Assembly: GCF_016654015.1 (NCBI RefSeq)
Contig: NZ_JAEPWM010000006.1
Location: 186,001-250,000, forward strand
Direction: 5' to 3'
DNA from: Ramlibacter ginsenosidimutans
Lineage (GTDB): Bacteria > Pseudomonadota > Gammaproteobacteria > Burkholderiales > Burkholderiaceae_C
DNA length: 64,000 nucleotides
How positions within the stretch are numbered: the first letter of the stretch is position 1; each line of letters opens with the position of its first letter. This document shows positions 9,552 through 25,291 of this stretch, piece after piece. The notes under the pieces are model-generated. The model saw nothing but the letters and a program-made list of their open reading frames with translations. It searched no databases and was not told the origin of the DNA. The position numbers and the translations under genes are program-made.

Positions 9552-9580
9552 ACGGCGCGGCGCGCGTTTGTCGCGCCGTT
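9552..9580 (+). terminator. possible terminator after the propionate operon
   Basis: ACGGCGCG and CGCGCCGT make an 8-base perfect stem with a 12-base loop, just after the VOC stop at 9537. The following T-run is very short, so termination strength is doubtful. Confidence 0.35.
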
Positions 9581-9657
9581 GGGACAGGCGCGCGCACCGT
9601 TTGCGCAGACTGGGGTTACGCGGCGAGCCTGCTGGCGGAGAATCCGGCTGCTCAAGC

Positions 9658-11043
9658 ATGGATAAGGCTTCTCCCCAACTCCTGGTCGCTGCCGGTCGCG
9701 GACCCGCGCCGCAGGACGCGGTGCTGCGCTGCCAGGCCGCGCTGCTGGCCCGCAGCCTCCTGCCCGAAGCGGCGACGGCCCTGGCCGCCGAACTGGCCGA
9801 GGTGCTGCAGTGCCGCCGGGTGAGCGTGGGCCTGCTGGAAGCCGGGCGCATTCGCGTCGTGGGCAGCTCGCAGGCCGCCGACCTCGACCCCCGCCAGGAC
9901 GCCGCCGCGCAGCTCGCCGCAGCCATGCACGAGTCGCTGGACCAGCACCTGTCGCTCGCCTGGCCTCCGCTGCCCGGCATCGATGCAGTCACCCTGGCGC
10001 TGGCGCAGCTGGCCGGCACGGGCCAGGCCTGCGCCATTCCGCTGGTCGCGGCGGGTGAGACCGTCGGGGCGATCACGCTGGAGCGCGGCGCCCAGCCGCC
10101 GTTCACGGCGGCCGATCTCGCCACCTGCGAGGACGTGGCCAGCTTCGCCGCACCGGTGCTCGCCATGAAGCGCGACGCGGCGCTGCCCTGGACGGTCCGC
10201 GCGCGCCGCTGGCTGCAGGCCCGCCTGGCAGCACCCGGTCAACGCCGCAAGGCGTGGATCACCGGCGCTGTCGTCGCCATCGCAGTGCTGGCCGTCCCGC
10301 TGCCCTGGCGCGTGAGCGCACCGGCGCGGCTGGAAGGCGCCGTGCAGCGCGCCGTGGTCGCGGCCTCCGACGGCTTCTTGCAGCAGGTGAACGTGCGCCC
10401 CGGCGACCGCGTCACCGCCGGCCAGCTGCTCGGCCAGCTCTCCTCGCAGGACCTGGAACTGGAGCGCCGCCGCCGGGAAAGCGAGATGCGGCAGCACGAG
10501 AACGCGTACCGCGCCGCCGAGGCCCGCAACGAGCGCACCCAGATGGTGGTGAGCCAGTCGCGCGCTGCCGAGGCCGAAGCGTTGCTGGCGCTCGCGGAAA
10601 CGCAGTTGCAGCGCAGCCAGCTGGTCGCACCCTTCGACGGCGTCGTCATCAAGGGCGACCTCGCGCAGAACCTGGGGGCGCCGGTGAAGAAGGGCGAAGT
10701 GCTGATGGTGCTGGCGCCCAGCGACAACTTCCGGCTGATCGTCGAAGTGGACGAGACCGACATCGCCGCAGTGCGACTGGGCCAGCACGGGGCGCTGGCG
10801 CTGGCCGCGCGGCCCGAGCAGCCGCTGCCGTTCACCACGCGCCGCATCGTGCCGCTGGCGACCGCTGCCGATGGCCGCAACTACTTCGAGGTGGAGGCGA
10901 GCCTGGACTCGCCGCAGCCGGACCTGCGCCCGGGCCTGAGCGGCGTCGCGAAGATCGAGGCGGGGCACCGGCCGCTCGCGTGGCTGCTGTTGCACCGTCC
11001 CGTCGCGTGGGCGCGGCTCGCGTTGTGGACCCTGGGGCCGTGA
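9658..11043 (+). CDS. GAF-domain HlyD-type periplasmic adaptor
   Basis: A 461-residue membrane fusion protein with an unusual cytoplasmic head. Residues about 20-170 resemble a GAF sensor (ACAIPLVAAGETVGAITLER). One transmembrane helix follows (about 200-217, ITGAVVAIAVLAVPLPW). Then come a lipoyl-like half (LQQVNVRPGDRVTAGQLLGQ), a Glu/Arg-rich hairpin coiled coil (about 265-320), and a second lipoyl half with beta barrel (LVAPFDGVVIKGDL). HlyD adaptors bridge inner and outer membrane exporters; a cytosolic GAF head suggests ligand-gated activity. ATG at 9658 is chosen over an upstream in-frame start because the extension is Arg-rich and untypical. The stop overlaps the next GTG (GTGA), so translation is coupled. 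Confidence 0.85.
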   Translation: MDKASPQLLVAAGRGPAPQDAVLRCQAALLARSLLPEAATALAAELAEVLQCRRVSVGLLEAGRIRVVGSSQAADLDPRQDAAAQLAAAMHESLDQHLSLAWPPLPGIDAVTLALAQLAGTGQACAIPLVAAGETVGAITLERGAQPPFTAADLATCEDVASFAAPVLAMKRDAALPWTVRARRWLQARLAAPGQRRKAWITGAVVAIAVLAVPLPWRVSAPARLEGAVQRAVVAASDGFLQQVNVRPGDRVTAGQLLGQLSSQDLELERRRRESEMRQHENAYRAAEARNERTQMVVSQSRAAEAEALLALAETQLQRSQLVAPFDGVVIKGDLAQNLGAPVKKGEVLMVLAPSDNFRLIVEVDETDIAAVRLGQHGALALAARPEQPLPFTTRRIVPLATAADGRNYFEVEASLDSPQPDLRPGLSGVAKIEAGHRPLAWLLLHRPVAWARLALWTLGP

Positions 11044-13190
11044 ACGAGCCCCTGGTCAGCGGCTCCTGGTACCGCGTCGCCCCGCTGCGACCGAGCCTGG
11101 TGGCTGGCCTGAAGATCGTGCGCCAGCGCGTGCGCGACCAGCTGTGGCACGTGCTCGTGGAGCCGGGGTCAGGGCGGCAGCTGCGGCTCAATCCCGCCGC
11201 GTACGCGTTTGCCGGCCGCTGCGACGGGCGCGCCAGCGTCGAGGACCTCTGGCAGGCGGCGCTGCGGCGCGAGGGGGAAGACGCGCCGACCCAGGACGAC
11301 GTCCTGCGCCTGCTCGCCCAGCTCTTTCGCGCCGGCATGCTGCACTTCGACGCGGCGCCGCACCTGTCGCTGCTCTTCGCGCGCCGCGGCGAGGACGACG
11401 GCAAGCGGCGCCGCAGCTTCGTGAATCCGCTGGCGCTGCGGCTGCGCCTGTTCGATCCCACGCGCCTGCTCGATCGCCTGCTGCCGCTCGCCGCCCAGGT
11501 CCCCATGAAGCTCGCCGCGCTTGCGTGGCTTCTCCTCGTGCTGCTCGCCGCCGTGGCTGCGGCCGTGTCGTTCCCGCAGCTGAAGGCCGACGCGTTGAGG
11601 GTGATGGCCACCCCTTCCAGCTATGCGATGGCATGGCTGGCCTACCCGCTAGTGAAGTCGCTGCACGAGCTGGCGCATGCGCTGGCCGTGCGCCGCTTCG
11701 GCGGCGCCGTGCGCGAAGTCGGGCTCTCCATGCTGCTGCTGACACCGGCGCCCTACGTTGACGCGAGTGCGGCCAACGCCTTTTCGTCGGCGCGCGAGCG
11801 TGCGCTGGTGAGCGCCGCCGGCATCCTGGTGGAGCTCGCGCTGGCGGCGCTCGCGGTCTTCGCGTGGACGGTGCTGGCGCCGGGGCTGCTGCGCGATGCA
11901 GCCACCGTGGTCGTCCTGATCTGCTCGGTGTCCACCTTCCTGTTCAACGCCAATCCGCTGATGCGGATGGACGGGTACTACCTCCTGTGCGACGTGCTGC
12001 AGCTGCCCAACCTGGCCTTGCGCAGCCATGCGTGGTGGGCTTCCGCCTGGCGGCGGGCGCTCGGTGCGGAGCCGCCGCTGCCGGCCAGCGCGCTGGCGGC
12101 CGGCGAGAGCAAGTGGCTCCTGGCCTATGCACCCGCGTCCTTCGCGTATCGACTCGCGCTGCTGGCGACGCTGGTCGGCTGGGTGGGACATCATTCATGG
12201 CTGGCAGGATGGGGACTGGCGCTGGGGCTGCTTGCGTGGCTCGCCACGCTGGCCGTGCGCGGCGTGCTGCGTTCGGCCGCGGCGGCGCCGCAACCCGCTG
12301 CGCGCCGCAAGGTCCTGGCGGTCGCGGCCGGCGCCGCCCTGGCCGTGGTGCTGGCGCTGTTCGTGGTGCCGCTGCCGGCCAGCGTCGTGACGCAAGGCGT
12401 GGTGTGGCCTCCCGACCATGCGCAGCTGCGGCCCGATGCGGCCGGCTTCGTGGAGCAACCGGTGGTGCGCGACGGCGATGCCGTGCTGCAGGGGCAGGTC
12501 GTGCTGCGGCTCGCGGACGCCGAGCTCGTCGCGCAGCGGGACAAGGCGGCCAGTGAGCGCACCGGGCTGATGGCGGAGCAGTACCACGCCTTGCTGCTGG
12601 ATCCCGCGCGGGCCGGCGACGTCAACGAGCAGCTCGCGCGCAACGACGCGGAACTGCAGCACGCCGAAGGCCAGCTCGCGGGACTGGAAGTGCGGGCCCG
12701 CAGCGCGGGCCGCGCCGTGTTGCCGCACGAGCAGGACCTGGACGGCACGTACGTGCAGCGCGGGGCCATGGTCGGCTACGTGCTGGGCCCGGAGCCAGCG
12801 CAGGTGCGGGCGGTGCTGCGCGACGAAGACCTGCTGCGCGTGCGCGGCCGCCTGCGGGGCGTCGAGGTCCGGCTGGCCGACTCGCCCTGGACTGCGCGCG
12901 CGGCGCAACTGCGCAACGAGACCCCCGCGGCCACGCGCCAGCTTCCGAGCGCCGCGCTTGGCGACCGCGACGGCGGCCCGGTCGCGGTGGATCCGGCGGA
13001 CAAGGACGGCCTGCGCACGCAGGCGCCCGTGTTCCTGCTGGACGTGGTGATGCCGGACCTGCCCGCCGGAAACGTGGGCGGCCGCGCCTGGGTGAAGCTG
13101 CAGTTGCCGGCGGAGCCCCTGGGCTGGCAGGCGGTGCGCAACCTGCGCCAGCTGCTGCTGCGGCAGTTCAGTCCGACGGGGCAGGCATGA
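11040..13190 (+). CDS. M50-family membrane metalloprotease with C-terminal HlyD-like region
   Basis: A 716-residue membrane protein. Residues about 30-105 look like a PqqD-type winged helix. Hydrophobic helices then surround the zinc motif HELAH (209-213) and the second M50 motif NPLMRMDGYY (305-314, Asp311 as third ligand). After further helices and a final one near 455-475 (LAVVLALFVVPLPASVV), the C-terminal part carries an HlyD-like lipoyl region (PDAAGFVEQPVVRDGDAVLQ) and a short coiled coil. This matches proteins named putative peptide zinc metalloproteases, which sit beside HlyD exporters; substrates are mostly unknown. GTG start at 11040 overlaps the previous stop. It could process the exported giant protein or act as a structural channel part. 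Confidence 0.85.
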   Translation: MNEPLVSGSWYRVAPLRPSLVAGLKIVRQRVRDQLWHVLVEPGSGRQLRLNPAAYAFAGRCDGRASVEDLWQAALRREGEDAPTQDDVLRLLAQLFRAGMLHFDAAPHLSLLFARRGEDDGKRRRSFVNPLALRLRLFDPTRLLDRLLPLAAQVPMKLAALAWLLLVLLAAVAAAVSFPQLKADALRVMATPSSYAMAWLAYPLVKSLHELAHALAVRRFGGAVREVGLSMLLLTPAPYVDASAANAFSSARERALVSAAGILVELALAALAVFAWTVLAPGLLRDAATVVVLICSVSTFLFNANPLMRMDGYYLLCDVLQLPNLALRSHAWWASAWRRALGAEPPLPASALAAGESKWLLAYAPASFAYRLALLATLVGWVGHHSWLAGWGLALGLLAWLATLAVRGVLRSAAAAPQPAARRKVLAVAAGAALAVVLALFVVPLPASVVTQGVVWPPDHAQLRPDAAGFVEQPVVRDGDAVLQGQVVLRLADAELVAQRDKAASERTGLMAEQYHALLLDPARAGDVNEQLARNDAELQHAEGQLAGLEVRARSAGRAVLPHEQDLDGTYVQRGAMVGYVLGPEPAQVRAVLRDEDLLRVRGRLRGVEVRLADSPWTARAAQLRNETPAATRQLPSAALGDRDGGPVAVDPADKDGLRTQAPVFLLDVVMPDLPAGNVGGRAWVKLQLPAEPLGWQAVRNLRQLLLRQFSPTGQA

Positions 13191-13272
13191 CACGGCGAGC
13201 CGGCCACGGGCGAAGCCTGCCGTGCACGGCGCGGAGGGCGCGTCCCGTGGGCCGCCGCAAGGAGTGAACGCC

Positions 13273-15189
13273 GTGGCGCATGCCTGGCCTTTTCCCGGTG
13301 TGGTCTGGGGCGAGTACCCGGAGCATTCGTCCGCGTCGGCTGCGCAGCGGCGCGGCAGCCAGCTGTCGCTGGCGGCGTTGCAGTCCTTTGCCGAATCGGT
13401 CCTGCAGCAGGGCACCATTGCGCCGGCGGCCGTGGCCGGCCGGCTGCAGGGCCTGCCGGCCCTGGTCCCACAGGAGGATGCATGGCTGCATGAAGCCGCC
13501 GTGCTGGCCACCAGCGCACTCACGCACACGGTGGGCTACGTGCCGCACCGGCAGCAGCTCATGGCTGCGCGCGCGCTGCTCGACGAGCGCCTGGCGGAGA
13601 TGGCGACCGGCGAAGGCAAGACGGCCGCCATCGCGCTGGCCGCTGCCGTGGCGGCGCTCGCCCGCACGCCGGTCCACGTGATCACGGCCAACGACTACCT
13701 CGCGCAGCGCGACGCCGACGCGCTGCGGCCGTTCTACGAGCGCCTCGGGCTGCGCGTGGATTGCGTGACGCAACCCATGGACGCGGCGCAACGGCGCAGC
13801 GCCTATCGCGCCAACGTCACCTACTGCACCGCCAAGGAGCTCGCCTTCGACTGGCTGCGCGACGGTCTCGCCCGGGCGTCGGACCTGTCCGCCCTGGAGC
13901 AGCGGGCCCGCCGGCTCGCGGGCACCTTGCCGCGACCGCCCGTGTTGCGGGGACTGTGCATGGCGATCCTCGACGAGGCGGACACGGTGCTGATCGACGA
14001 GGCGCGGGTGCCGCTGGTGCTGGCGCAGGCCGCCGGAGGCGATGAGGAGTCCGGGTTCTACCGCGGCGCGCTCGAGGCGGCGCGCCGGCTGGCCGCAGAC
14101 GTGGACTACCGGCCCGTCGATGCGCGGCGCTTCGTCCTCACGGACCAGGGCCGCGCACGGCTGGCTGCCTGGCCGGCTGCGGACCATCCGCTGCTCGGGC
14201 ACCGTGCCCATCGCGAAGCGGCCGTCGAACTCGCGCTGGTCGCCCTGCATGTGCTGGAGCGCGATCGCGACTACGTGCTGCGCGATGGCGAGGTGCGGCT
14301 GGTGGACGAGACCACCGGACGAGCCGCCGCGGGGCGCGCCTGGTCCTCGGGCCTGCACCAGCTGGTGGAGTGGAAGGAGGGCGTGCCCGGCACCCGCCGC
14401 AACAGCACCATGACGCAGACCACGTTCCAGCGCTTCTTCCCGCGCTACCTGCGGCTGGCGGGTGCGAGCGGCACGCTGTCCGAAGCCCGCAGGGAACTGC
14501 GTCAGGTCTATGGGCTGGACGTGGTGGTCATTCCTCGGCGCGAGCCCTGGCGCGTGCAGGCGGCGCCGTTGCGCCTGTGGCCGGACAGCGCAGGGCTGTG
14601 GCAAGCCGTGGCGGCCGAAGCCGCCGCGGTCGCGGCACAGGGCCGGGCGGTGCTGGTCGGCACCGAAACCGTGGGGCACACCGAGGCGCTTTCCGCCGTG
14701 CTGCGCACCGCTGGCGTGCCGCACCAGGTGCTGCATGCGCGCCAGGACCAGGAGGAGAGCCGGCTGATTGCCGCGGCGGGACAGGCCGGCCGCATCACCG
14801 TGGCCACCAGCATGGCGGGTCGGGGCACCGACATCATGTGCGAGCCAGCGGTGCTGGAGCGCGGCGGACTGCACGTGATCCTCTGCCAGGCCAATGCTTC
14901 CGCGCGGATCGACCGCCAGTTCCTCGGACGCGCGGGCCGCCAGGGCCAGCCCGGGAGCATCCGCCGCATGGCCGCCGCCGATTTCCCCCTGCTGCGCCGG
15001 TGGTGGCCTGAGCGCTGGCTGGATTTCGCCGCGAGGGCAGGTGAAGGCGAAGTGTTGGCAAATGTCACACTAAAGGTTGCGCAAGCTCGACAATCCTTTA
15101 CGACTCGTTACGAGCGTGTGAAACTCAGCCACATCGCCGAGTCCATGGAACGGGACTTGACGTTCAGTCGGCAGGTACACCATGAATAG
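13273..15189 (+). CDS. SecA-like DEAD motor ATPase lacking the SecA C-terminal scaffold
   Basis: A 638-residue SecA paralogue. Walker A is MATGEGKT (110-117), Walker B is LDEADTVLIDEAR (233-245), motif V is TSMAGRGTDI (512-521) and motif VI is GRAGRQGQPGS (552-562). A preprotein cross-linking-like domain lies between about 250 and 345. Only about 75 residues follow motif VI, so the helical scaffold, two-helix finger, wing and zinc tail of the roughly 900-residue housekeeping SecA are absent. A dedicated translocation motor is likely. GTG at 13273 is chosen because AAGGAG lies 8 bases upstream; an earlier in-frame GTG at 13222 lacks a site. It overlaps the following HlyD gene by 8 bases. Confidence 0.88.
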   Translation: MAHAWPFPGVVWGEYPEHSSASAAQRRGSQLSLAALQSFAESVLQQGTIAPAAVAGRLQGLPALVPQEDAWLHEAAVLATSALTHTVGYVPHRQQLMAARALLDERLAEMATGEGKTAAIALAAAVAALARTPVHVITANDYLAQRDADALRPFYERLGLRVDCVTQPMDAAQRRSAYRANVTYCTAKELAFDWLRDGLARASDLSALEQRARRLAGTLPRPPVLRGLCMAILDEADTVLIDEARVPLVLAQAAGGDEESGFYRGALEAARRLAADVDYRPVDARRFVLTDQGRARLAAWPAADHPLLGHRAHREAAVELALVALHVLERDRDYVLRDGEVRLVDETTGRAAAGRAWSSGLHQLVEWKEGVPGTRRNSTMTQTTFQRFFPRYLRLAGASGTLSEARRELRQVYGLDVVVIPRREPWRVQAAPLRLWPDSAGLWQAVAAEAAAVAAQGRAVLVGTETVGHTEALSAVLRTAGVPHQVLHARQDQEESRLIAAAGQAGRITVATSMAGRGTDIMCEPAVLERGGLHVILCQANASARIDRQFLGRAGRQGQPGSIRRMAAADFPLLRRWWPERWLDFAARAGEGEVLANVTLKVAQARQSFTTRYERVKLSHIAESMERDLTFSRQVHHE

Positions 15190-16087
15190 AGTCAGGGGTT
15201 GGGGGGCGCTGGTGGGGGCGCTACTGCCGGCGGCGGCAGTCGCGCAGGCGCTCGGCTGCCTGATCGAGCCGTACCGCGTCTCGGAAGTGGGCAGCCCGAT
15301 CGTCGGTGTCATCGAGTCGGCGGCGGTGGAGCGCGGCGACCTCGTCCGCGCCGGCCAGGTGCTGGCCACGCTGCGTGCGGATGTCGAGCGCCAATCGCTG
15401 GCGGTGGCGCAGAGCAAGGCCGATGCGGTGGGCGAGTTGCGCGCCGCCGAGGCCAACGCCGAACTCGCGCGGCAGAAGCTCGCGCGTGCCAAGGACCTCG
15501 CCGACCAGAAGTTCATCTCCAGCCAGGCGCTGGAACAGGCGCGCGCCGAGGCGATGGTGGCGGAGAACCGTCTCGAGCAGGCCCGCGAGCAGCGTGACGT
15601 GTACGCTCGCGAGCATAGTCTGGCCGCAGCGCAGCTGGGACAGCGGACGATCCGCAGCCCGTTCTCGGGCGTCATCGCGGAGCGCTACATGTCGGCTGGC
15701 GAACACATCGACGACAAGCCGATCTACCGGGTCGCCATGATCAACCCCTTGCGGGTCGAGGTGGTCCTGCCGGCCTCTGCGTACGCGAGCGCGCGGCAGG
15801 GCATGAGCGTCACCGTGCTCCCCGAGTTCCCCGGGGCCACGCCGCGCCAGGCCAAGGTGACGCTGGTGGATCGGGTCATCGATGGCGCCAGCAACACGTT
15901 CCGCGTGCGCATGGAACTGCCGAACCCGGACCTGTCGTTGCCGGCGGGGCTGCGCTGCAAGGTCGATCTCGGCGCACCGACCGGGGCCTCGCGCGGCACC
16001 CCGGCGGCTACGGGGCGGCGCGACGGCTCGGCGCTGCAGTTGAAGAATGCGCCGGCGTTGGTCAGGCAACCCGCGCCCAACCCCTGA
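15182..16087 (+). CDS. secreted HlyD/RND-type periplasmic adaptor
   Basis: A 301-residue adaptor with a cleavable-type signal (MNRVRGWGALVGALLPAAAVAQA, cleavage likely near residue 22). A lipoyl half (SPIVGVIESAAVERGDLVRA), a long Ala/Glu/Arg coiled-coil hairpin (about 65-150), the second lipoyl half (IRSPFSGVIAERYMSAGEHI) and a beta-barrel domain follow. No membrane helix remains after the signal, unlike the first adaptor, so this is a soluble or membrane-associated periplasmic subunit. It starts inside the end of the SecA-like gene and lies 15 bases before the giant protein gene, arguing for one assembly. Confidence 0.85.
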   Translation: MNRVRGWGALVGALLPAAAVAQALGCLIEPYRVSEVGSPIVGVIESAAVERGDLVRAGQVLATLRADVERQSLAVAQSKADAVGELRAAEANAELARQKLARAKDLADQKFISSQALEQARAEAMVAENRLEQAREQRDVYAREHSLAAAQLGQRTIRSPFSGVIAERYMSAGEHIDDKPIYRVAMINPLRVEVVLPASAYASARQGMSVTVLPEFPGATPRQAKVTLVDRVIDGASNTFRVRMELPNPDLSLPAGLRCKVDLGAPTGASRGTPAATGRRDGSALQLKNAPALVRQPAPNP

Positions 16088-16102: not shown

Positions 16103-19100
16103 ATGCACTGGCTGCGCCGACTCCTGACGGACCGCGATGGTCGCAGGATTCCGATCGCGGAGCCGATGGAGCCGCGCCTGCTGTATTCCGCGGACCTCAC
16201 GGCGGGCCTGATGCTGGCCTCCAGCGTCGACGCGGCGGCGCCCGAGGTGCGCACGGTCACGAGTGCGGGCGAGTACGCCGCGTCGACGGCGACGAATGCG
16301 AGCACGACGGCGGCTGGCGGCGCCGTCCAGACCGCGTACGCGGCGCTGCGCATGGGCTTCGAGGCCAACCAGGGCCAGGCCGCTCCGGGCGTCGACTACG
16401 TCGCGCAAGGCAGCGATTACGGCGTCGCGCTGGCCGGCGGCAATGCGCAGCTCACGCTGGTCACGGACCAGGGCGTGCAGTCCGTGACGATGACGCTGCA
16501 AGGCGCGCACACCGCCACCGCGCAGGCCGAGGACCTGCAGGCGACCACCAGCAACTCCATTGTCGGCAGCGACGCGTCGAAGTGGCGCACCGGCATCGCG
16601 AACTACGGCGCAGTGCGCTACGCCAACGTCTACGACGGCGTGGACGTGCGCTACTACGGAACGCAGCGGCAGCTGGAATACGACTTCATCGTCGCGGCCG
16701 GCGCTGACGCCAGCGCCATCCGCCTGCAGTTCCAGGGCAGCGCAGGCGCGACGGTGGATGCGGACGGCAACCTCGTCCTGCAGGTCGCAGGCAGCGACGG
16801 CACGGTGCGCTTCAAGGCGCCGGTGGCCTACCAGCGCGGCGCGGACGGTCAGCTCGAAGCGGTGGCGAGCCGCTACGCGCTGCAGGCCGACGGCAGCGTC
16901 GGCTTCGCACTGGGCGCGTACGACAGCAGCCGCGAGCTGGTGATCGACCCGGTGCTGGACTACGCGACCTACTTCGGGGACAACAACTTCGACAACGCAG
17001 TGGCCGTCGCGACCGATGCCCAGGGCAACGTCTACGTCACGGGACGCACCAACTCCGTCAACGCGAGCAGCGGACCGCTCCTGCCCGTGATCGGCCCGGG
17101 CGGTGGCTCGGGCGACGTCTATGTCGCCAAGTTCTCCTCCGACCTGTCGACCCTGCTTTGGTCGACACGCATCGGCGGCGCCAACGGGGACCAGGGCAAC
17201 GCGATTGCGGTGGATGCCAATGGCAACGTGGCCGTGGCCGGCTGGACGAAGTCGAACGACTTCCCGACGAAGAACGCGACGCAGGCCAGCATCAGCGGTG
17301 GCGGCGATGGCTTCGTCCTGAAGCTCAATGCCAGTGGTGCCCTGGTGTTCAGCACCTACGTGGGCGAAAGCAACGCGAGCGACTCGGCCAACGCGGTCGC
17401 GTTCGACAGCTCCGGCAACGTCTACGCGGCCGGCCAGGCAAGCAACAGCAACCTGCTGTCCAGTGCGCTGCAGGCTGTGTTCGGCAACTCGGACAACGCC
17501 TTCGTCAACAAGTACGCCAGCAATGGCGACTTGCTCTGGTCGCAACTGCTGGGTGGCAACTCCACCGATGCGGCCAACGGCATCGCGGTGGGCGGCGGCG
17601 GCTCCGTCTACGTGGTCGGCCAGACCCAGTCGTCCAACATGAGCGTGCTGTTCGGCCAACAGAGCGCACTCTCCGGTTCCAGCGACGGCTTCCTGGCCCG
17701 CCTGGACGGCACGGACGGCACGGTCGGCTGGTCGACTTACCTGGGTGGCTCCAGCACGGACTCGGCCAGCGCCGTCGCCGTCAACGCCGGCAAGGTCTAC
17801 GTAGTCGGGACCACGCACGCGGGCAGCAGCATCAGCTTCACCACCACGGCGGGCGCCTTCATGACCAGCTCGCCCACGAGCAACAAGGACACGGGCTTCG
17901 TGCGCGTCTACGACACCACGAAGACCGGCGCGGCCTCGCTTCTCTATTCGTCGTATCTCGGCGGCTCGGGGTCGGACACGCCTTCCGGCGTGGCGTACGC
18001 GGGCGGCCGCGTGGTCGTCACCGGCCTGGCCGGCTCCAGTGACTTCCCGGTGACGGGTGGGGCGGTGCAGGCCACGAACGCAGGCTCGTCGATGTACGTC
18101 GCCGTCCTGAACCCGGCCGGTGGGGGCAGCGCCGATCTCCAGTACGGCACCTACTACGGCGAGAAGATGACGCCGGGTGGCGTGGCGATCTACGGGGGGC
18201 GGGCCTACGTCGTGGCCGCGACGGCCGTCACCGGTTATGGCACGGCCGGTTCGTACCAGCCTGCCATCTCGAACAACACCGACGGCGTCGTCGCCGCGTT
18301 CGACCTGTTCTCCAACACGGCGCCGACGCTGAATGGCGTGGTGCAGCCCTCCGCCATCCTGGAGGACAGCGGGGGCGGCAGCGGCTTCCTGGTCTCGTCG
18401 CTGATCGCAGGGCAGGTCAGCGATCCCGATGCCGGCGCGCTGGCGGGCATCGCCATCGTGGGCAGCCCCGGCAGTGCCAACGGCACCTGGCAATACTCGC
18501 TGGACAACGGCAGCACCTGGGCGGCCGTCGGTTCGACGTCGGCCAGCAGCGCGCTGGTGCTGGCAGCGGACACCCAGTCCCGGTTGCGCTTCGTGCCCGC
18601 TGCCGACTATGCGGGCACCGCCAGCGCGGGACTGACGATCCGCGCCTGGGACCGCACCAACGGCACCACCGGCAGCCGCGTGGATGCGAGCGTGACCGGC
18701 GGCATCACCGCATTCAGCAGCAACAGCTTCGGTGTCGACCAGGCCGTCACGCCGGTGAACGACCCGCCCGTGCGCACCGGCGGCACGGTGGTGGACGTCA
18801 CGACGCTGGAGGACCAGACCGTCGACCTCGGCCTGGGCGGACTGAGCTACGGCCCCGGCGGCGGCGCGGACGAGGCCAGCCAGGTGCTGACCGTGACCGT
18901 GACCGGGCTGCCCACCGGCCTCGGCAACGTGGTCCTGAGCGACGGGACCACGTTGGTCGCGCTCAACACGGCCTACACGGTCAACGACCTGAAGGGCATG
19001 AAGTTCGTGCCGGCCGCCAACGTGTCGGGCACCGGAGTGTTCTCGTGGAAGGTCACCGACAACGGCGGTACGGCCAACGGCGGCAGCGAGAAGCTGCTGC

Positions 19101-22100
19101 AGTCCCTCCAGGTAACCGTGACTGCCGTCAACGACGCACCGGTGCGCCTGAGCGGATCGGTCGCCAACCTCAGCGTCGTGGAAGGCTCGCCGGCTGCATC
19201 GCTCGGGCTTGCCAGTGTGAGCTACGGCCCTGGCGGCGGCGCCGACGAGGCGGCGCAGTCGCTGAGCTACCAGGTGATCGCCGTGCCCGCAGCCAATGTG
19301 GGACGCATCGTGCTGGCCGACGGCACGACGACGGTCGTCGCCGGGACCAGCTATTCGCTGGCGCAGATCCAGGGCATGCAGTTCCTGGCAGGCAGCGTCG
19401 CGAGCGGCAGCGGGACCTTCGCTTTCACGGTCAAGGACAACGGCGGCACCGCCAGCGGCGGGGTCGACACGCTGGTGCAGTCGCTCGCCATCGCTGTGGT
19501 CAACCAGGCGCCGACGCTGGACGGGCTGAACCCGCTGTCCATGCTGGAGGACGACGCCACCGACCAGGGCATGCTGGTCTCCACCCTGGTGGCCGGCCAC
19601 ATCGCCGACCCGCTGGGCGCGTCGGGCATCGCCGTCACGGGTGCCAGTGATCCGCACGGCACCTGGCAATACACGCTCGATGGCGGCACGACCTGGTCGG
19701 CCATCGCGGGCGTGAGCGACAGCCAGGCCTTGCTGCTGGCGAGCGACGCCAACACCCGCGTGCGCTTCGTGCCGCAGGCGGACTGGAACGGCTCGGCGGC
19801 GGGCCTGTCGGTTCGCGCCTGGGACCGCAGCGCCGGGACGGCGGGCCAGCTCGCCGACACCACGGTCAACGGCGGCAGCAGCCCCTTCAGCGCGCAGCTG
19901 CAGACGGCGAGCGTCACGGTCACGCCGGTGAACGACCCGCCCGTGATCGTGGCGGGCAGCGTCGCCAACGTCACGGCGCGCGCCGGCACGAGCACGAGCC
20001 TCGGCCTCACCGGCCTCGCGTACGGACCCGGTGGTGGCAGCGACGAAGCCGGCCAGAGCCTGACGTTCACCGTGACCGGTGTCCCGCCGGCGGCGCTGGG
20101 CACGCTGCTGCTCGCGGACGGCCTCACGGCCGTGGCGGCGGGTAATGCCTACACCCTGGCGGAGTTGCAGGGCATGCAGTTCGCGCCGGCCACCGGCGTG
20201 ACCAGTGGCAGCGGCAGCTTCGCGTTCACGGTGCGGGACAGCGGCGGCACCGCATTCGGCGGCAGCGACTCGCTGGCGCAGAGCCTCACCATCACGGTCG
20301 CCAACCAAGCTCCGGTGCTGGCCGGCGCCAACGCGCTGCCCGACGTGGCGGAAGACGCGGCGGCCAACAACGGCGCGACGGTGGCACAGCTGGTGAGCGG
20401 CCGCATCACCGACCCCGCCGGCGCGCACGGCATCGCGGTCGTCGCTGCGGCGAACGCGAACGGGGAGTGGCAGTACAGCCGCGACGACGGCGGCACGTGG
20501 CACGCGTTCACGGGCGTGGCGACGACCACCGCGACCTTGCTCACGACCGAGGACCGCATCCGCTTCGTGTCCGCCCCGAACTGGAACGGCACGGCCGGGG
20601 GCCTGGTGTTCCGCGCCTGGGACGGCAGTGGCGGGACGGCCGCGCAGGAGAGCGGCGACACGACGGTCACCGGCGGCAGCAGCCCATACAGCGACGCCAC
20701 CGCGGAAGCGACGGTCACCGTCCTCGCGGTGAACGATGCGCCGGTGCGCAGTGCGGGCGCGGTGGCGAACCTCACCGTGGCGGAGGACAGCGCCAGCACG
20801 TCGCTAGTCCTGGGGACACTCGCGTTCGGGCCGGGTGGTGGAGCGGACGAAGCCGGCCAGGTGCTCACGTACGCCGTCGTCGCCGTGCCGCCCGCCACGC
20901 TGGGGCAGGTGACGCTGGCCGACGGCACCGTGGTCGCGCCGGGCAGCTATACGCTGGCGCAGATGCAGGGCATGCGCTTCCTCGCAGCGGCCAACGCCAA
21001 CGGCACGGCCGCTTTCAGCTTCCAGGTGAACGACGGCGGCGGCACGGCGAACGGCGGCGTGGACACGCTCGTGCAAAGCCTGCAGATCACGGTGACGCCA
21101 GTGAACGATCCGCCGGTGCGCACGGCGGGCAGCGTCGCCAACCTCTCCGTCGCCGAGGACAGCGGAGCGAGCAGCCTGGGCCTGTCGGGCCTGGCCTATG
21201 CGCCGGGCGGCGGCGCCGACGAGGCGGCTCAAACGCTCACCTACACGGTGACGGTGCTCCCGCCCGCCGCCTTGGGGCAGGTCACGCTGGCCGACGGCAC
21301 CGCCGTCGGTGTGGGCAGCTATACGCTGGGGCAGATCCAGGGCATGCGCTTCCAGGCGGCTGCCAACGCGAACGGCAGCGGCAACTTCGCCTTCACCGTG
21401 CAGGACGGCGGCGGGACGGCCAACGGCGGCAGCGACACCCTGGCCGAGGCGCTGAACATCGTCGTCAGCGCGGTGAACGATGCGCCGGTGCGGCTCTCCG
21501 GCACGGTCGGCGACCTGACGGTGGTCGAAGGCGCACCGGCGACGTCGCTGGGCCTGGCGGGCCTCGCTTACGGGCCGGGCGGCGGCGCCGACGAAGCGGG
21601 GCAGTCGCTTGGCTATCGCGTCACCGCGGTGCCGGCGCCCTCGGTGGGCCGCATCGTCCTGGCCGATGGCACCACCGTCGTCGCGGGGGGCAGCTACACG
21701 CTGGCCCAGCTTCAGGGCATGCAGTTCGCGAGCGCGAGCGTCGCGAGCGGCAGCGGGATCTTCAGCTTCACGATCCAGGACAACGGCGGCACGGCCAACG
21801 GCGGCATCGACACGGTGGCCGAGTCGCTCAGGATCGCCATCGTCAACCAGGCGCCGACCCTCGACGGACTCAATCCGATGACCCTGCGCGAGGACCCCTC
21901 CAGCAACGACGGCGTGCTGGTGGCCGACCTCGTGAACGGCCACATCGCCGACCCGCTGCATGTGCAGGGCGTGGCGATCGCCGGGGCCGCCGACCCGAAC
22001 GGCAGCTGGCAGTACAGCCTGGACGCCGGGGCCACCTGGACCGCCATCGCCGGCGTGAGCGACCAGCATGCGCTGCTGCTCGGGGCCGACGCCAACACGC

Positions 22101-25100
22101 GCGTGCGCTTCGTGCCCGCTCCGGATTTCGCGGGCAATGCCGGTGGACTGCAGGTGCGTGCGTGGGACCAGAGCAGCGGCACCGCCGGAGGCTACGCTGA
22201 CGTCACGGCGAACGGAGGGTCCACCGCGTTCAGCGCGCAGGCGTACACGACGGACGTGACGGTGACTCCGGTGAACGATGCGCCCGTGCTGGTGTTCGGC
22301 GGCCTCATGGACCTCACGGTGACCGAGGGATCCGTCACGAGCCTGGGCCTGGGCAGCGTGAGCTACGGGCCCGGTGGCGGCGCGGACGAGGCGAACCAGG
22401 CCCTGGCGTACCGGGTGACGGCCGTGCCGCCATCGGCGTTCGGCACCATCCAGCTCGCCGACGGCACGGTCGTCGCCGCGGGCCAGAGCTACACGCTGTC
22501 GGACATCGAGGGCCTGCGTTTCGTGGTGGCCGCGGGCGTGACCAGCGGCAGCGCCACCTTCGCCATGACCGTGCAGGACAACGGCGGCACGCTCGACGGC
22601 GGGGCCGACAGCCTGTCCCAATCGATGCTGCTCACCGTGCGCAACGTGGCGCCGGTTCTCTCCGGCAGCAATCCGCTGACCGCCCTGGCGGAGGACGCCG
22701 CCAGCAACAACGGTACGCTGGTCGCCGATGTGGTGAACGGGAAGATCAGCGATCCCGGCGCGTCTTACGGAATCGCGGTGATAGCCGCCACCAACCCGAA
22801 CGGCAGCTGGCAGTACAGCCGCGACAACGGCGCGAGCTGGCAGGCGTTCACCGGCGTGGGCACGACCTCGGCCATCCTGCTGGCGGCGGACGGCGAGGAC
22901 CGGCTCCGCTTCGTTCCCGCCGCGGACTGGAACGGCACGGCCGGCGGCCTGGTCTTCCGCGCCTGGGACGGAAGCGGCGCAACGGCGGGCGCGACCACGG
23001 GCGACACGAGCACCACCGGCGGCGCCAGCCCCTACAGCGTGCAGACTGCGGAGGCGATGGTGACGGTCTTCGCCGTCAACGATCCGCCGGTGCGCACGGC
23101 GGGCACGGTGGCCAACCTCACCGTCGCCGAGGACAGTGCTTCCGCGAGCCTGGGGCTGGGCGCAATTGCGTACAAGCCTGGCGGCGGCAGCGACGAAGCG
23201 ACGCAGGTCCTGACCTATACAGTCACTGGCTTGCCGCCGGCCTCGCTCGGCGCCGTCACGCTGGCCGACGGCACGGCGGTCAGCGCTGGCAGCTACACGC
23301 TCGCCCAGATCCAGGGCATGCGCTTCGCCGCGGCCGCGAACGCGAACGGGACCGGGACCTTCTCGTTTGCCGTCACGGACAACGGCGGTGGAACCGACAC
23401 TCTTGCGCAAAGCCTGCAGATCACCGTCACGCCGGTGAACGATGTGCCGGTGCGTACGTCTGGCGGCGTATCCAACCTCGCTGTCGCTGAGGACAGCGGG
23501 TCCACGAGCCTCGGCCTGGTCGCGCTCGCCTATGGGCCCGGCGGCGGCGCCGACGAAGCGACGCAGACATTGACGTACACGGTGACGACCTTGCCTCCTT
23601 CGTCGCTCGGACTCGTGACGCTGGCCGATGGGACGGCCGTGACCACCGGCACCTACACCTTGGCTCAGATCCAGGGCATGCGCTTCGCCACGGCTGCCGA
23701 TGCGAACGGCACCGGCAGCTTCTCCTTTGCCGTGACAGACAACGGCGGTGGAACCGACACGCTCACGCAAAGCCTGCAGATCACGGTGACGCCGGTGAAC
23801 GACGCGCCGGTGCGCACGGCAGGATCGGTGGCTGGCCTCACTGTCGCTGAGGACAGCGGGTCCACGGGCCTCGGACTCGGCGCGCTCTCCTATGGGCCTG
23901 GGGGCGGCACCGATGAAGCCACGCAGTCACTGACGTACACGGTCACGGCCTTGCCGCCTTCGTCGCTCGGACTCGTGACGCTGGCCGATGGCACCGCCGT
24001 GACCACCGGCACCTACACGCTCGCCCAGATCCAGGGCATGCGGTTCGCCACCGCGGCGAATGCGAACGGGAGCGGCAGCTTTGCCTTCGCCGTCACCGAC
24101 AACGGCGGTGGAACGGACACGCTCGCGCAAAGCCTGCAGATCACGGTGACGCCGGTGAACGACGCCCCGGTGATCACCAGCAATGGCGGCGCGCCTGCCG
24201 CGAGCGTTGCCATGCCGGAGAACACCACCTTCGTGGGCGTCGTGACCGCTTCCGACGTCGATACGGCGCCGGCCAACCTGGTCTTCGGCATCGGCGGCGG
24301 TGCGGACGCGGCGCTGTTCGCGATCGACCCCGCGACCGGCGCGCTCTCCTTCCTGCAGCCGCCCGATTACGAGCGGCCGGCCGACGCCAACCGGGACAAC
24401 GTGTATGACGTGGTGGTGCAGGTCGGCGACGGCAGCCTCGCCGCGCAGCAGGCACTCTCCGTGCGTGTCACGGACGTCGCTGACACCGTGGCACCGCCCG
24501 CGCCCGTGACGCAGGCACCCGCACCCGCACCCGCACCCGCTCCTGCGCCTGCGCCTGCGCCTGCGCCGGTACTGGACCTCGCCCCTGCGCCAACGCCGGC
24601 GTCGGCATCCGCTCCTGCAACGGCGCCGTCGACGCAGCCCGCGACAGCGCTGCTGCCGCCCGCTGCCGCGCCCGCCGCTGCGGCGACCCGGGCGGCTCCC
24701 ACGGCCAGCACCGTGCATGACGCGACCGGCGCCGTCTCGCTGCAGGACGCGCTGGGCCCGACGATGCCGACCCCGATCACCTCGTTCAACAGCAGCCCGC
24801 CGTCGTTGGCGAACGCGCCGGCGCGCCTCGCGCTGGCGGCGGACACCAGCCACGTGCTGCACACGGTGGTCCTGGACCGCGCCGGGCTCGAGCTGATCTC
24901 CGGCGACCCCAGCACCCAACTCGTGCTGGCGCGCTTTGGCATCGACAGCCAGGGGGACGCCTTGCGGCTCGCCGACCTGCAGCGTTCGCTGCACTCGTCC
25001 GCGTTCGCGCACCAGTTCGACCGGCTGCGCGACTCCGTGCGGGAGGAGTTGCACCTCGACGACGCCGTGACCCTCTCCGCCGCGAGCGTCTCGCTGGGCC

Positions 25101-25291
25101 TGTCGCTGGTGTACGTCGTCTGGCTGATCCGGGGTGGGGTGCTGGTGGGCAGCTACCTCTCGGCGCTGCCGGCGTGGCGGCTGCTGGATCCCTTGCCGGT
25201 GCTGTCCCGCGTCGAGGACGAGGACGATGACGAGGAACCGCTCGAAGGCGCAGAGCCCGAGGGCCAGCACACCTTGCGGAGCTTCGGATGA
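16103..25291 (+). CDS. giant repeat protein with LEPR-type N-terminus, SBBP and cadherin-like modules and C-terminal membrane segment
   Basis: A 3062-residue protein, probably exported or displayed on the surface. The N-terminus has no classical signal peptide. Instead it has a basic start and the motif MEPRLLYSADL (22-32), the LEPR-XLL type found on very large repeat proteins. Residues about 80-310 contain FEANQGQ (86-92), typical of domains preceding SBBP propeller repeats. SBBP-like units (DAQGNVYVTG, DSSGNVYAAG) run to about 735. From 738 to about 2795 come ten cadherin-like modules with PGGG(A/S/T)DEA and five longer interleaved modules with WQYS(L/R)D. A Pro-Ala stretch (about 2803-2870) and a hydrophobic segment (2997-3034, SLGLSLVYVVWLIRGG and PAWRLLDPLPVL) precede an acidic tail. 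ATGA overlaps the kinase gene. Confidence 0.88.
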   Translation: MHWLRRLLTDRDGRRIPIAEPMEPRLLYSADLTAGLMLASSVDAAAPEVRTVTSAGEYAASTATNASTTAAGGAVQTAYAALRMGFEANQGQAAPGVDYVAQGSDYGVALAGGNAQLTLVTDQGVQSVTMTLQGAHTATAQAEDLQATTSNSIVGSDASKWRTGIANYGAVRYANVYDGVDVRYYGTQRQLEYDFIVAAGADASAIRLQFQGSAGATVDADGNLVLQVAGSDGTVRFKAPVAYQRGADGQLEAVASRYALQADGSVGFALGAYDSSRELVIDPVLDYATYFGDNNFDNAVAVATDAQGNVYVTGRTNSVNASSGPLLPVIGPGGGSGDVYVAKFSSDLSTLLWSTRIGGANGDQGNAIAVDANGNVAVAGWTKSNDFPTKNATQASISGGGDGFVLKLNASGALVFSTYVGESNASDSANAVAFDSSGNVYAAGQASNSNLLSSALQAVFGNSDNAFVNKYASNGDLLWSQLLGGNSTDAANGIAVGGGGSVYVVGQTQSSNMSVLFGQQSALSGSSDGFLARLDGTDGTVGWSTYLGGSSTDSASAVAVNAGKVYVVGTTHAGSSISFTTTAGAFMTSSPTSNKDTGFVRVYDTTKTGAASLLYSSYLGGSGSDTPSGVAYAGGRVVVTGLAGSSDFPVTGGAVQATNAGSSMYVAVLNPAGGGSADLQYGTYYGEKMTPGGVAIYGGRAYVVAATAVTGYGTAGSYQPAISNNTDGVVAAFDLFSNTAPTLNGVVQPSAILEDSGGGSGFLVSSLIAGQVSDPDAGALAGIAIVGSPGSANGTWQYSLDNGSTWAAVGSTSASSALVLAADTQSRLRFVPAADYAGTASAGLTIRAWDRTNGTTGSRVDASVTGGITAFSSNSFGVDQAVTPVNDPPVRTGGTVVDVTTLEDQTVDLGLGGLSYGPGGGADEASQVLTVTVTGLPTGLGNVVLSDGTTLVALNTAYTVNDLKGMKFVPAANVSGTGVFSWKVTDNGGTANGGSEKLLQSLQVTVTAVNDAPVRLSGSVANLSVVEGSPAASLGLASVSYGPGGGADEAAQSLSYQVIAVPAANVGRIVLADGTTTVVAGTSYSLAQIQGMQFLAGSVASGSGTFAFTVKDNGGTASGGVDTLVQSLAIAVVNQAPTLDGLNPLSMLEDDATDQGMLVSTLVAGHIADPLGASGIAVTGASDPHGTWQYTLDGGTTWSAIAGVSDSQALLLASDANTRVRFVPQADWNGSAAGLSVRAWDRSAGTAGQLADTTVNGGSSPFSAQLQTASVTVTPVNDPPVIVAGSVANVTARAGTSTSLGLTGLAYGPGGGSDEAGQSLTFTVTGVPPAALGTLLLADGLTAVAAGNAYTLAELQGMQFAPATGVTSGSGSFAFTVRDSGGTAFGGSDSLAQSLTITVANQAPVLAGANALPDVAEDAAANNGATVAQLVSGRITDPAGAHGIAVVAAANANGEWQYSRDDGGTWHAFTGVATTTATLLTTEDRIRFVSAPNWNGTAGGLVFRAWDGSGGTAAQESGDTTVTGGSSPYSDATAEATVTVLAVNDAPVRSAGAVANLTVAEDSASTSLVLGTLAFGPGGGADEAGQVLTYAVVAVPPATLGQVTLADGTVVAPGSYTLAQMQGMRFLAAANANGTAAFSFQVNDGGGTANGGVDTLVQSLQITVTPVNDPPVRTAGSVANLSVAEDSGASSLGLSGLAYAPGGGADEAAQTLTYTVTVLPPAALGQVTLADGTAVGVGSYTLGQIQGMRFQAAANANGSGNFAFTVQDGGGTANGGSDTLAEALNIVVSAVNDAPVRLSGTVGDLTVVEGAPATSLGLAGLAYGPGGGADEAGQSLGYRVTAVPAPSVGRIVLADGTTVVAGGSYTLAQLQGMQFASASVASGSGIFSFTIQDNGGTANGGIDTVAESLRIAIVNQAPTLDGLNPMTLREDPSSNDGVLVADLVNGHIADPLHVQGVAIAGAADPNGSWQYSLDAGATWTAIAGVSDQHALLLGADANTRVRFVPAPDFAGNAGGLQVRAWDQSSGTAGGYADVTANGGSTAFSAQAYTTDVTVTPVNDAPVLVFGGLMDLTVTEGSVTSLGLGSVSYGPGGGADEANQALAYRVTAVPPSAFGTIQLADGTVVAAGQSYTLSDIEGLRFVVAAGVTSGSATFAMTVQDNGGTLDGGADSLSQSMLLTVRNVAPVLSGSNPLTALAEDAASNNGTLVADVVNGKISDPGASYGIAVIAATNPNGSWQYSRDNGASWQAFTGVGTTSAILLAADGEDRLRFVPAADWNGTAGGLVFRAWDGSGATAGATTGDTSTTGGASPYSVQTAEAMVTVFAVNDPPVRTAGTVANLTVAEDSASASLGLGAIAYKPGGGSDEATQVLTYTVTGLPPASLGAVTLADGTAVSAGSYTLAQIQGMRFAAAANANGTGTFSFAVTDNGGGTDTLAQSLQITVTPVNDVPVRTSGGVSNLAVAEDSGSTSLGLVALAYGPGGGADEATQTLTYTVTTLPPSSLGLVTLADGTAVTTGTYTLAQIQGMRFATAADANGTGSFSFAVTDNGGGTDTLTQSLQITVTPVNDAPVRTAGSVAGLTVAEDSGSTGLGLGALSYGPGGGTDEATQSLTYTVTALPPSSLGLVTLADGTAVTTGTYTLAQIQGMRFATAANANGSGSFAFAVTDNGGGTDTLAQSLQITVTPVNDAPVITSNGGAPAASVAMPENTTFVGVVTASDVDTAPANLVFGIGGGADAALFAIDPATGALSFLQPPDYERPADANRDNVYDVVVQVGDGSLAAQQALSVRVTDVADTVAPPAPVTQAPAPAPAPAPAPAPAPAPVLDLAPAPTPASASAPATAPSTQPATALLPPAAAPAAAATRAAPTASTVHDATGAVSLQDALGPTMPTPITSFNSSPPSLANAPARLALAADTSHVLHTVVLDRAGLELISGDPSTQLVLARFGIDSQGDALRLADLQRSLHSSAFAHQFDRLRDSVREELHLDDAVTLSAASVSLGLSLVYVVWLIRGGVLVGSYLSALPAWRLLDPLPVLSRVEDEDDDEEPLEGAEPEGQHTLRSFG
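23071..24150 (+). repeat. three in-frame 360-base tandem repeats inside the giant gene
   Basis: Blocks beginning at 23071, 23431 and 23791 are each exactly 360 bases (120 codons); the phrase GCCGGTGAACGA recurs at 23431, 23791 and 24151. The second and third blocks are nearly identical over long stretches (for example GGACTCGTGACGCTGGCCGA in both), which points to recent duplication or gene conversion. Unit number could vary between strains. Confidence 0.9.

Follow-up and report, generated by a model that had tools for sequence, protein, structure and literature searches.

A short SecA in a PqqD-M50-HlyD operon as the probable motor for export of giant LEPR-XLL proteins

The 64,000-nucleotide stretch of DNA analysed here (the window) encodes a short SecA_DEAD protein. 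With a probability of roughly 0.6, we regard it as the ATPase that works on the cytosolic side of an exporter dedicated to giant, surface-type LEPR-XLL proteins. This reading draws on gene co-occurrence and on sequence comparison. The operon that encodes the short SecA occurs almost only together with LEPR-XLL giants, and often beside their genes, which points to this protein as the probable engine of their exporter. The kind of protein has already been described; its likely substrate and the mapped boundary at which it ends are new.

Secondary SecA_DEAD domain proteins were described by Kamneva, Poudel and Ward in 2015 (PMC4452313) as proteins without SecA_SW, encoded beside M50, HlyD/biotinyl-lipoyl and GAF-HlyD genes in Proteobacteria, Planctomycetes, Verrucomicrobia and other hosts. 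These authors suggested that the M50 protein forms the pore and that SecA provides the ATPase, and called the broader role "completely unknown"; neither a substrate nor the LEPR motif nor PqqD appears in their text. The window SecA matches this family, as it is a second, non-housekeeping SecA_DEAD protein in which SecA_SW is absent and which has the same M50, HlyD and GAF-HlyD neighbours. Beyond the family description, we mapped the truncation point and measured the link to LEPR-XLL proteins. Searches of the open-access literature, with subscription papers outside their scope, returned no functional follow-up of the 2015 paper and no published export route for LEPR-XLL proteins. The LEPR-XLL link makes the 2015 question on the role of the secondary SecA directly testable. 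The LEPR-XLL motif occurs in very long bacterial proteins, and the link provides both sides with a testable partner.

Organization of the operon

The operon genes lie on the plus strand in the order GAF-HlyD, PqqD-M50-HlyD, short SecA, HlyD-type adaptor, LEPR-XLL giant and hybrid sensor kinase (Table 1). Neighbouring genes share 4 to 8 bases; only around the SecA start and ahead of the giant do they not overlap. The start codon of the HlyD gene (15182) overlaps the SecA stop codon (15187-15189) by 8 bp. The last gene (25288-27783) encodes a hybrid sensor histidine kinase with PAS, HisKA, receiver and Hpt domains; it begins within the stop region of the giant gene and is possibly part of the same transcript.

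Like type I secretion systems (HlyB-HlyD-TolC), the operon brings together HlyD-type adaptors (three such domains, in three proteins) and a giant repeat protein as the probable substrate. It differs from them in having a SecA-type ATPase and an M50 membrane protein, and profile searches found no ABC transporter among the window operon genes. A TolC-type outer-membrane protein was likewise not found among these operon genes, to which that statement is confined. The candidate signal motif of LEPR-XLL giants is N-terminal, in contrast to the C-terminal signal of type I secretion.

Table 1. Positions of the operon genes and of their main elements in the window
Feature	Position	Strand	Evidence and remarks
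GAF domain + HlyD-type adaptor, 491 aa, operon gene 1	9568..11043	+	Pfam HlyD_3 66 bits, GAF 28 bits; start codon uncertain
PqqD + M50-like intramembrane metalloprotease + HlyD-type adaptor, single 716-aa protein	11040..13190	+	4-bp overlap with GAF-HlyD stop
PqqD domain, residues 37-101, candidate leader-binding element	11148..11342	+	Pfam; solved PqqD 3g2b, E 3e-4; model
HELAH zinc site (HExxH) of M50 domain	11664..11678	+	Alignments
Short (secondary) SecA_DEAD motor, 655 aa	13222..15189	+	Pfam SecA_DEAD 241 bits; alternative GTG starts 13264, 13273
Walker A GEGKT of short SecA, residues 130-134	13609..13623	+	
DEAD (Walker B) of short SecA, residues 251-254	13972..13983	+	
Preprotein cross-linking domain (PPXD) of short SecA, residues 277-383	14050..14370	+	Pfam SecA_PP_bind 73 bits
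Motif VI GRAGRQG of short SecA, residues 569-575	14926..14946	+	
First half of long scaffold helix, residues 610-652, at short SecA end	15049..15177	+	Model and alignment
HlyD/RND-type periplasmic adaptor, 301 aa, N-terminal signal-like stretch	15182..16087	+	TIGR01730 122.7 bits, cut-off 94.9
LEPR-XLL giant, 3062 aa, probable substrate	16103..25291	+	NF012209; SBBP, cadherin-like, Big_9, tandem-95 repeats (Pfam)
N-terminal motif MEPRLLYSAD of giant, candidate export signal	16166..16195	+	

Co-occurrence with LEPR-XLL giants

We examined co-occurrence in 300 genomes of the order and 398 of the phylum around the window (about 700 genomes overall), together with 80 public loci. Genes were counted as the full-length (strong) M50 type at 190 bits or more. 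With p-values that are overstated because the genomes are related and not independent, the M50 type and LEPR-XLL proteins were each found in 32 of the 300 order genomes and together in 28 (Fisher p = 6e-31); counted by genus (n = 135), the M50 type was found in 18, LEPR-XLL in 20 and both in 17 (p = 1e-17); and the 398 phylum genomes gave 37, 41 and 32, respectively (p = 8e-34). Counting by genus and sampling a second set of genomes gave results in the same direction as the genome-level link. Four order genomes had the M50 type without LEPR-XLL, and as their assemblies are broken into 310 to 580 contigs, the giant may have been lost in assembly.

The short SecA was present in all 32 order genomes with the M50 type and in none of the 38 without it. 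Twelve genomes chosen solely for their M50 gene (mostly Deltaproteobacteria-type MAGs, plus Omnitrophota and Rokubacteria) all had a short SecA, and nine had LEPR-XLL proteins. Among the 80 public loci, SecA stood beside the M50 gene in 75 and GAF-HlyD, upstream of it, in 76. Such a close tie of the short SecA to the M50, HlyD and GAF-HlyD genes fits a dedicated machine. Within the window genome, exactly two LEPR-XLL proteins scored above the curated cut-off, one of 3062 aa and one of 8786 aa, and each of their genes is paired with one short SecA, two by two. On contig C20, the gene order is 8786-aa giant, SapC gene, GAF-HlyD, PqqD-M50-HlyD, short SecA and HlyD.

Giant genes are often not adjacent to the SecA/M50/HlyD operon. 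A LEPR-type giant lay in the retrieved flank of 13 of the 80 public loci, and of 46 M50 genes, 20 had a LEPR-XLL gene no more than 50 kb away on their contig, leaving 26 with none. These unlinked genes would suit another explanation, namely that the operon and the LEPR-XLL giants merely mark the same surface-adhesion islands and that the giants exit by type I (ABC) secretion. An RTX-bearing LEPR-XLL protein in Vibrio also points that way, in a report that mentions LEPR-XLL in passing and unconnected to the SecA/M50 operon (PMC10868602). We consider this explanation very improbable, since the operon and the giants are tied genome-wide even where they are unlinked, and the operon genes searched include no ABC transporter. 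A weaker M50-HlyD class without SecA, which served as the negative control for the M50/LEPR-XLL link, argues against it as well: 22 order genomes have this class without the strong type, and LEPR-XLL proteins were found in only 3 of them, compared with 28 of the 32 with the strong type.

N-termini of the giants

The LEPR-XLL model NF012209 matched residues 20-37 of the 3062-aa giant with 20.1 bits by hmmscan and with 25.5 bits in the genome search (cut-off 17). LEPR N-termini are basic, and in most of them the motif LEPR-x-(L/M)-(L/M/Y/H)-S-A-D is present. No Sec-type hydrophobic core was found in them; their 12-mer hydropathy means were at most 1.8, compared with 2.2 for the signal-like stretch of the HlyD adaptor (2.23 for the hydrophobic 12-mer of the window protein).

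The residue before SAD in this leader was Y or H in all 17 giants linked to clade-1 (window-like) operons, a set that includes same-locus copies or close relatives. Giants linked to clade-2 operons had L or M at this position, except for two with Y. This hints that the residue is read by the matching machine, with shared ancestry as an alternative.

Two features were seen near the C-termini of the giants. The 8786-aa protein (G000 contig C20:358445-384805; L006, L009 and L007) has a metalloprotease-like HExxHxxGxxH sequence (HELGHAAGLEH) there. The C-terminus of the 3062-aa giant (24900-25291) closes with SLGLSLVYVVWLIRGGVLVG, which is hydrophobic, and an acidic tail; this end could be a membrane anchor or a retention segment.

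The motor and its ending

The short SecA gene is one open frame that ends at 15189 and starts with a GTG at 13222, 13264 or 13273, the last being the start used in the sequence-only reading. All three candidate starts include the P..G.YPER block that is common to its relatives. As the sequence-only reading had claimed, the motor motifs are complete, with GEGKT, DEAD, TSMAGRGTD (residues 529-537) and GRAGRQG all found. Pfam matched SecA_DEAD (241 bits), P-loop_SecA (118 bits) and SecA_PP_bind (73 bits), so the preprotein cross-linking domain, which that reading did not mention, is also kept. Motif VI is followed by 80 residues; the earlier count was about 75, and the short C-terminus itself stands. 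Pfam gave no SecA_SW match in the short SecA, and the one match in the genome is the housekeeping SecA. The window genome has three SecA_DEAD genes, one housekeeping (L008:1722-4535; 937 aa, 33% identity to the short SecA) and two short.

To locate the boundary, we aligned the window protein and 40 relatives (41 short SecAs) with the housekeeping SecA (937 aa) of the window genome. All 41 end at housekeeping residue 665 or 666, followed by a short tail, often LAFSGRxE. None of the 41 has a counterpart of the helical wing, the second scaffold half, the two-helix finger (housekeeping 772-808) or the zinc tail (917-934), in agreement with the earlier claims that wing, finger and zinc tail are missing. 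The claim that there is no scaffold at all holds for the second half only. The first half of the long scaffold helix, equivalent to housekeeping residues 641-666, is kept and conserved: Q642 and R653 each occur in at least 40 of the 41 short SecAs, and E646 and D660 in 37-38.

Two ways in which the truncation might have been only apparent were also considered. A scaffold hidden in the N-terminal region was not found; this region is predicted to begin with a disordered segment followed by SecA-like helices, and a hidden scaffold elsewhere was ruled out, as SecA_SW occurs once in the window genome, in the housekeeping SecA. A frameshift concealing a longer C-terminus, or a pseudogene, was ruled out because the ending is common to all 41 proteins and the next gene begins before the stop codon is reached.

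The short SecA shares the motor motifs, the preprotein domain and the first scaffold-helix half with housekeeping SecA, but the latter has the wing, the second scaffold half, the two-helix finger and the zinc tail in addition. Like the SecA2/accessory SecAs of Gram-positive bacteria and actinobacteria, it is a second SecA with a changed wing/scaffold region; unlike them, it has 655 residues (solved SecA2 proteins have 705-786) and different partners. The housekeeping model TIGR00963 scored 408 bits on the short SecA, under its equivalog cut-off of 800, and the SecA2 models TIGR03714, TIGR04221, TIGR04397 and NF012136 scored 306-369 bits against cut-offs of 725-1100. These curated cut-offs rule out membership in either group.

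A laboratory C-terminal truncation of E. coli SecA, SecA-N68 (PDB 5k9t), has a natural look-alike in the window protein. SecA-N68 is a fragment, whereas the window SecA occurs in nature as a conserved protein and has a short tail of its own. Removal of the regulatory C-terminal half of SecA raises its ATPase activity. The short SecA may therefore be a de-repressed motor that is restrained by its partners. As the motor is kept and the finger lost in every aligned member, these proteins offer a natural way to ask whether a SecA can push chains without the finger. In the absence of finger, wing and zinc tail, movement would depend on opening and closing of the clamp (PPXD against NBD2 and the scaffold helix) or on contacts supplied by partners.

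Degenerate short SecAs were seen in three otherwise normal operons (L161:7306-8940, L199:12170-14104 and L078:6142-8181). Walker A is altered or missing in L161 and L199, the preprotein domain is lost in L161, and motif V is lost in L078.

Predicted structure and the question of SecYEG

The structural model of the short SecA had a mean pLDDT of 89.5 and a pTM of 0.89, and its C-terminus was predicted as one 43-residue helix (610-652). The top Foldseek matches of this model were all SecA structures. Among complete SecAs, the best TM-score (TMq) was 0.77, for 6itc, a SecA with SecY and substrate. The scores for 5eul, 3dl8 and 3din, which are also SecY-engaged, were 0.74, 0.74 and 0.73, and those of free SecA were mostly 0.60-0.69 (1tf5, 0.69). 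The model thus most resembles SecY-engaged SecA; the state of its clamp is a prediction.

This resemblance is in keeping with the exporter reading and also bears on a rival explanation, in which the finger-less SecA works at ordinary SecYEG, as in SecA2-only systems, and loads or primes LEPR-XLL proteins while the housekeeping SecA finishes the push; the M50/HlyD proteins would then act past the inner membrane. The retained preprotein cross-linking domain and the presence of a complete housekeeping SecA in the genome are also consistent with such a division of labour, as is the 2015 SecA tree, which relates the clade to actinobacterial SecA2 (PMC4452313). We nevertheless find it rather doubtful. 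All aligned members have lost the finger and the wing, each of which is important at SecY. The LEPR N-termini have no Sec-type hydrophobic core, and the tie of the short SecA is to a single set of genes.

The PqqD-M50-HlyD partner

The partner protein begins with the PqqD domain, continues with membrane helices that bear the M50 sites, and has the adaptor at its end. The PqqD domain (PF05402) scored 36.6 bits, above the cut-off of 23.4. The PqqD fold binds leader peptides in peptide-modifying systems. Peptidase M50 (PF02163) scored 24.3 bits on the window protein, under the gathering cut-off of 27.2, which some of its sister-class relatives passed; the M50 match was called "rather weak" in 2015 too (PMC4452313). 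The HExxH and NPxxD residues (H209, E210, H213, N305, P306 and D311) were invariant in 28 and in 39 sequences, and both sites lie in or next to helices of the structural model (pLDDT 86.6). The adaptor half matches MexA/AcrA/MacA. The best named match of the membrane half was the daptide metalloprotease NF041824 (142 bits; equivalog cut-off 300). With this match and its PqqD-type element, the partner resembles daptide/RiPP leader proteases; it differs from them in being fused to an adaptor and in standing beside a giant protein, not a short peptide.

An invariant M50 site and a membrane half that best matches a daptide metalloprotease would also be expected if the short SecA were a regulator or unfoldase of the M50 protease, which brings the LEPR leader to the site and helps to release the cut product. 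The degenerate short SecAs could be accommodated by such a role. We judge it improbable, however, as every ATPase motif and the preprotein domain are retained in the great majority of short SecAs, and three adaptor proteins per operon point to transport, beyond processing alone.

A possible export route

In the exporter reading that we favour, the PqqD domain of the membrane protein would recognise the basic LEPR-XLL N-terminus, and the short SecA would feed the chain into an inner-membrane channel, which might be SecYEG or the M50 protein. The leader may be cut at the M50 site. The three adaptor proteins, together with a TolC-type protein, would then take the chain across the envelope.

A more specific version, which we put forward only tentatively, is a SecY-independent translocon. 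Here, PqqD-M50-HlyD would be the channel and would read the LEPR-XLL signal, and the finger-less SecA would drive through it chains that range from 3,000 to over 10,000 residues. The idea of an M50 pore dates from 2015 (PMC4452313); the novelty would lie in signal and substrate. The sequence-only reading had likewise proposed that a partner supplies the role of the finger or that the motor works on a different channel. The tie to the M50/HlyD/GAF-HlyD set supports this proposal in part. A finger-like segment was not found in any partner, SecA_SW having matched once in the genome. Three points escaped that reading: the 2015 description of the family, the probable substrate encoded a short way downstream, and the PqqD domain of the M50 partner.

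Loci without SecA

The strong M50 type was found without any second SecA in two genomes (G479 and G608), indicating that the motor is not indispensable everywhere. GAF-HlyD and M50-HlyD genes without an adjoining SecA were observed at L047 (the same locus as L129), L208 (genome G479) and L152. A short SecA is present elsewhere in the genomes of L047/L129 and L152.

The weaker M50-HlyD class looks like a sister exporter without SecA. Its operon (L200:1869-19899; L201-L205) consists of genes for a giant, a TolC-type OEP, HlyD, GAF-HlyD and M50-HlyD. Pfam detected the OEP in L200, L202, L204 and L205 and did not detect it in L203. The giant sequence LEPRLLFDGA was seen in this class (G093; L200). 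The presence of a SecA-less M50-HlyD system near LEPR-type giants suggests that LEPR export need not always use the short SecA. Locus versions without SecA (G479, G608 and the sister class) would need another motor, such as the housekeeping SecA, a point in favour of work at SecYEG. They suggest that the adaptor-M50 set forms a core shared by all versions, to which the short SecA adds a motor that is nearly constant yet separable. In another family of the phylum, one locus encodes a DUF3467 protein (L207:10402-10701) between the giant and GAF-HlyD.
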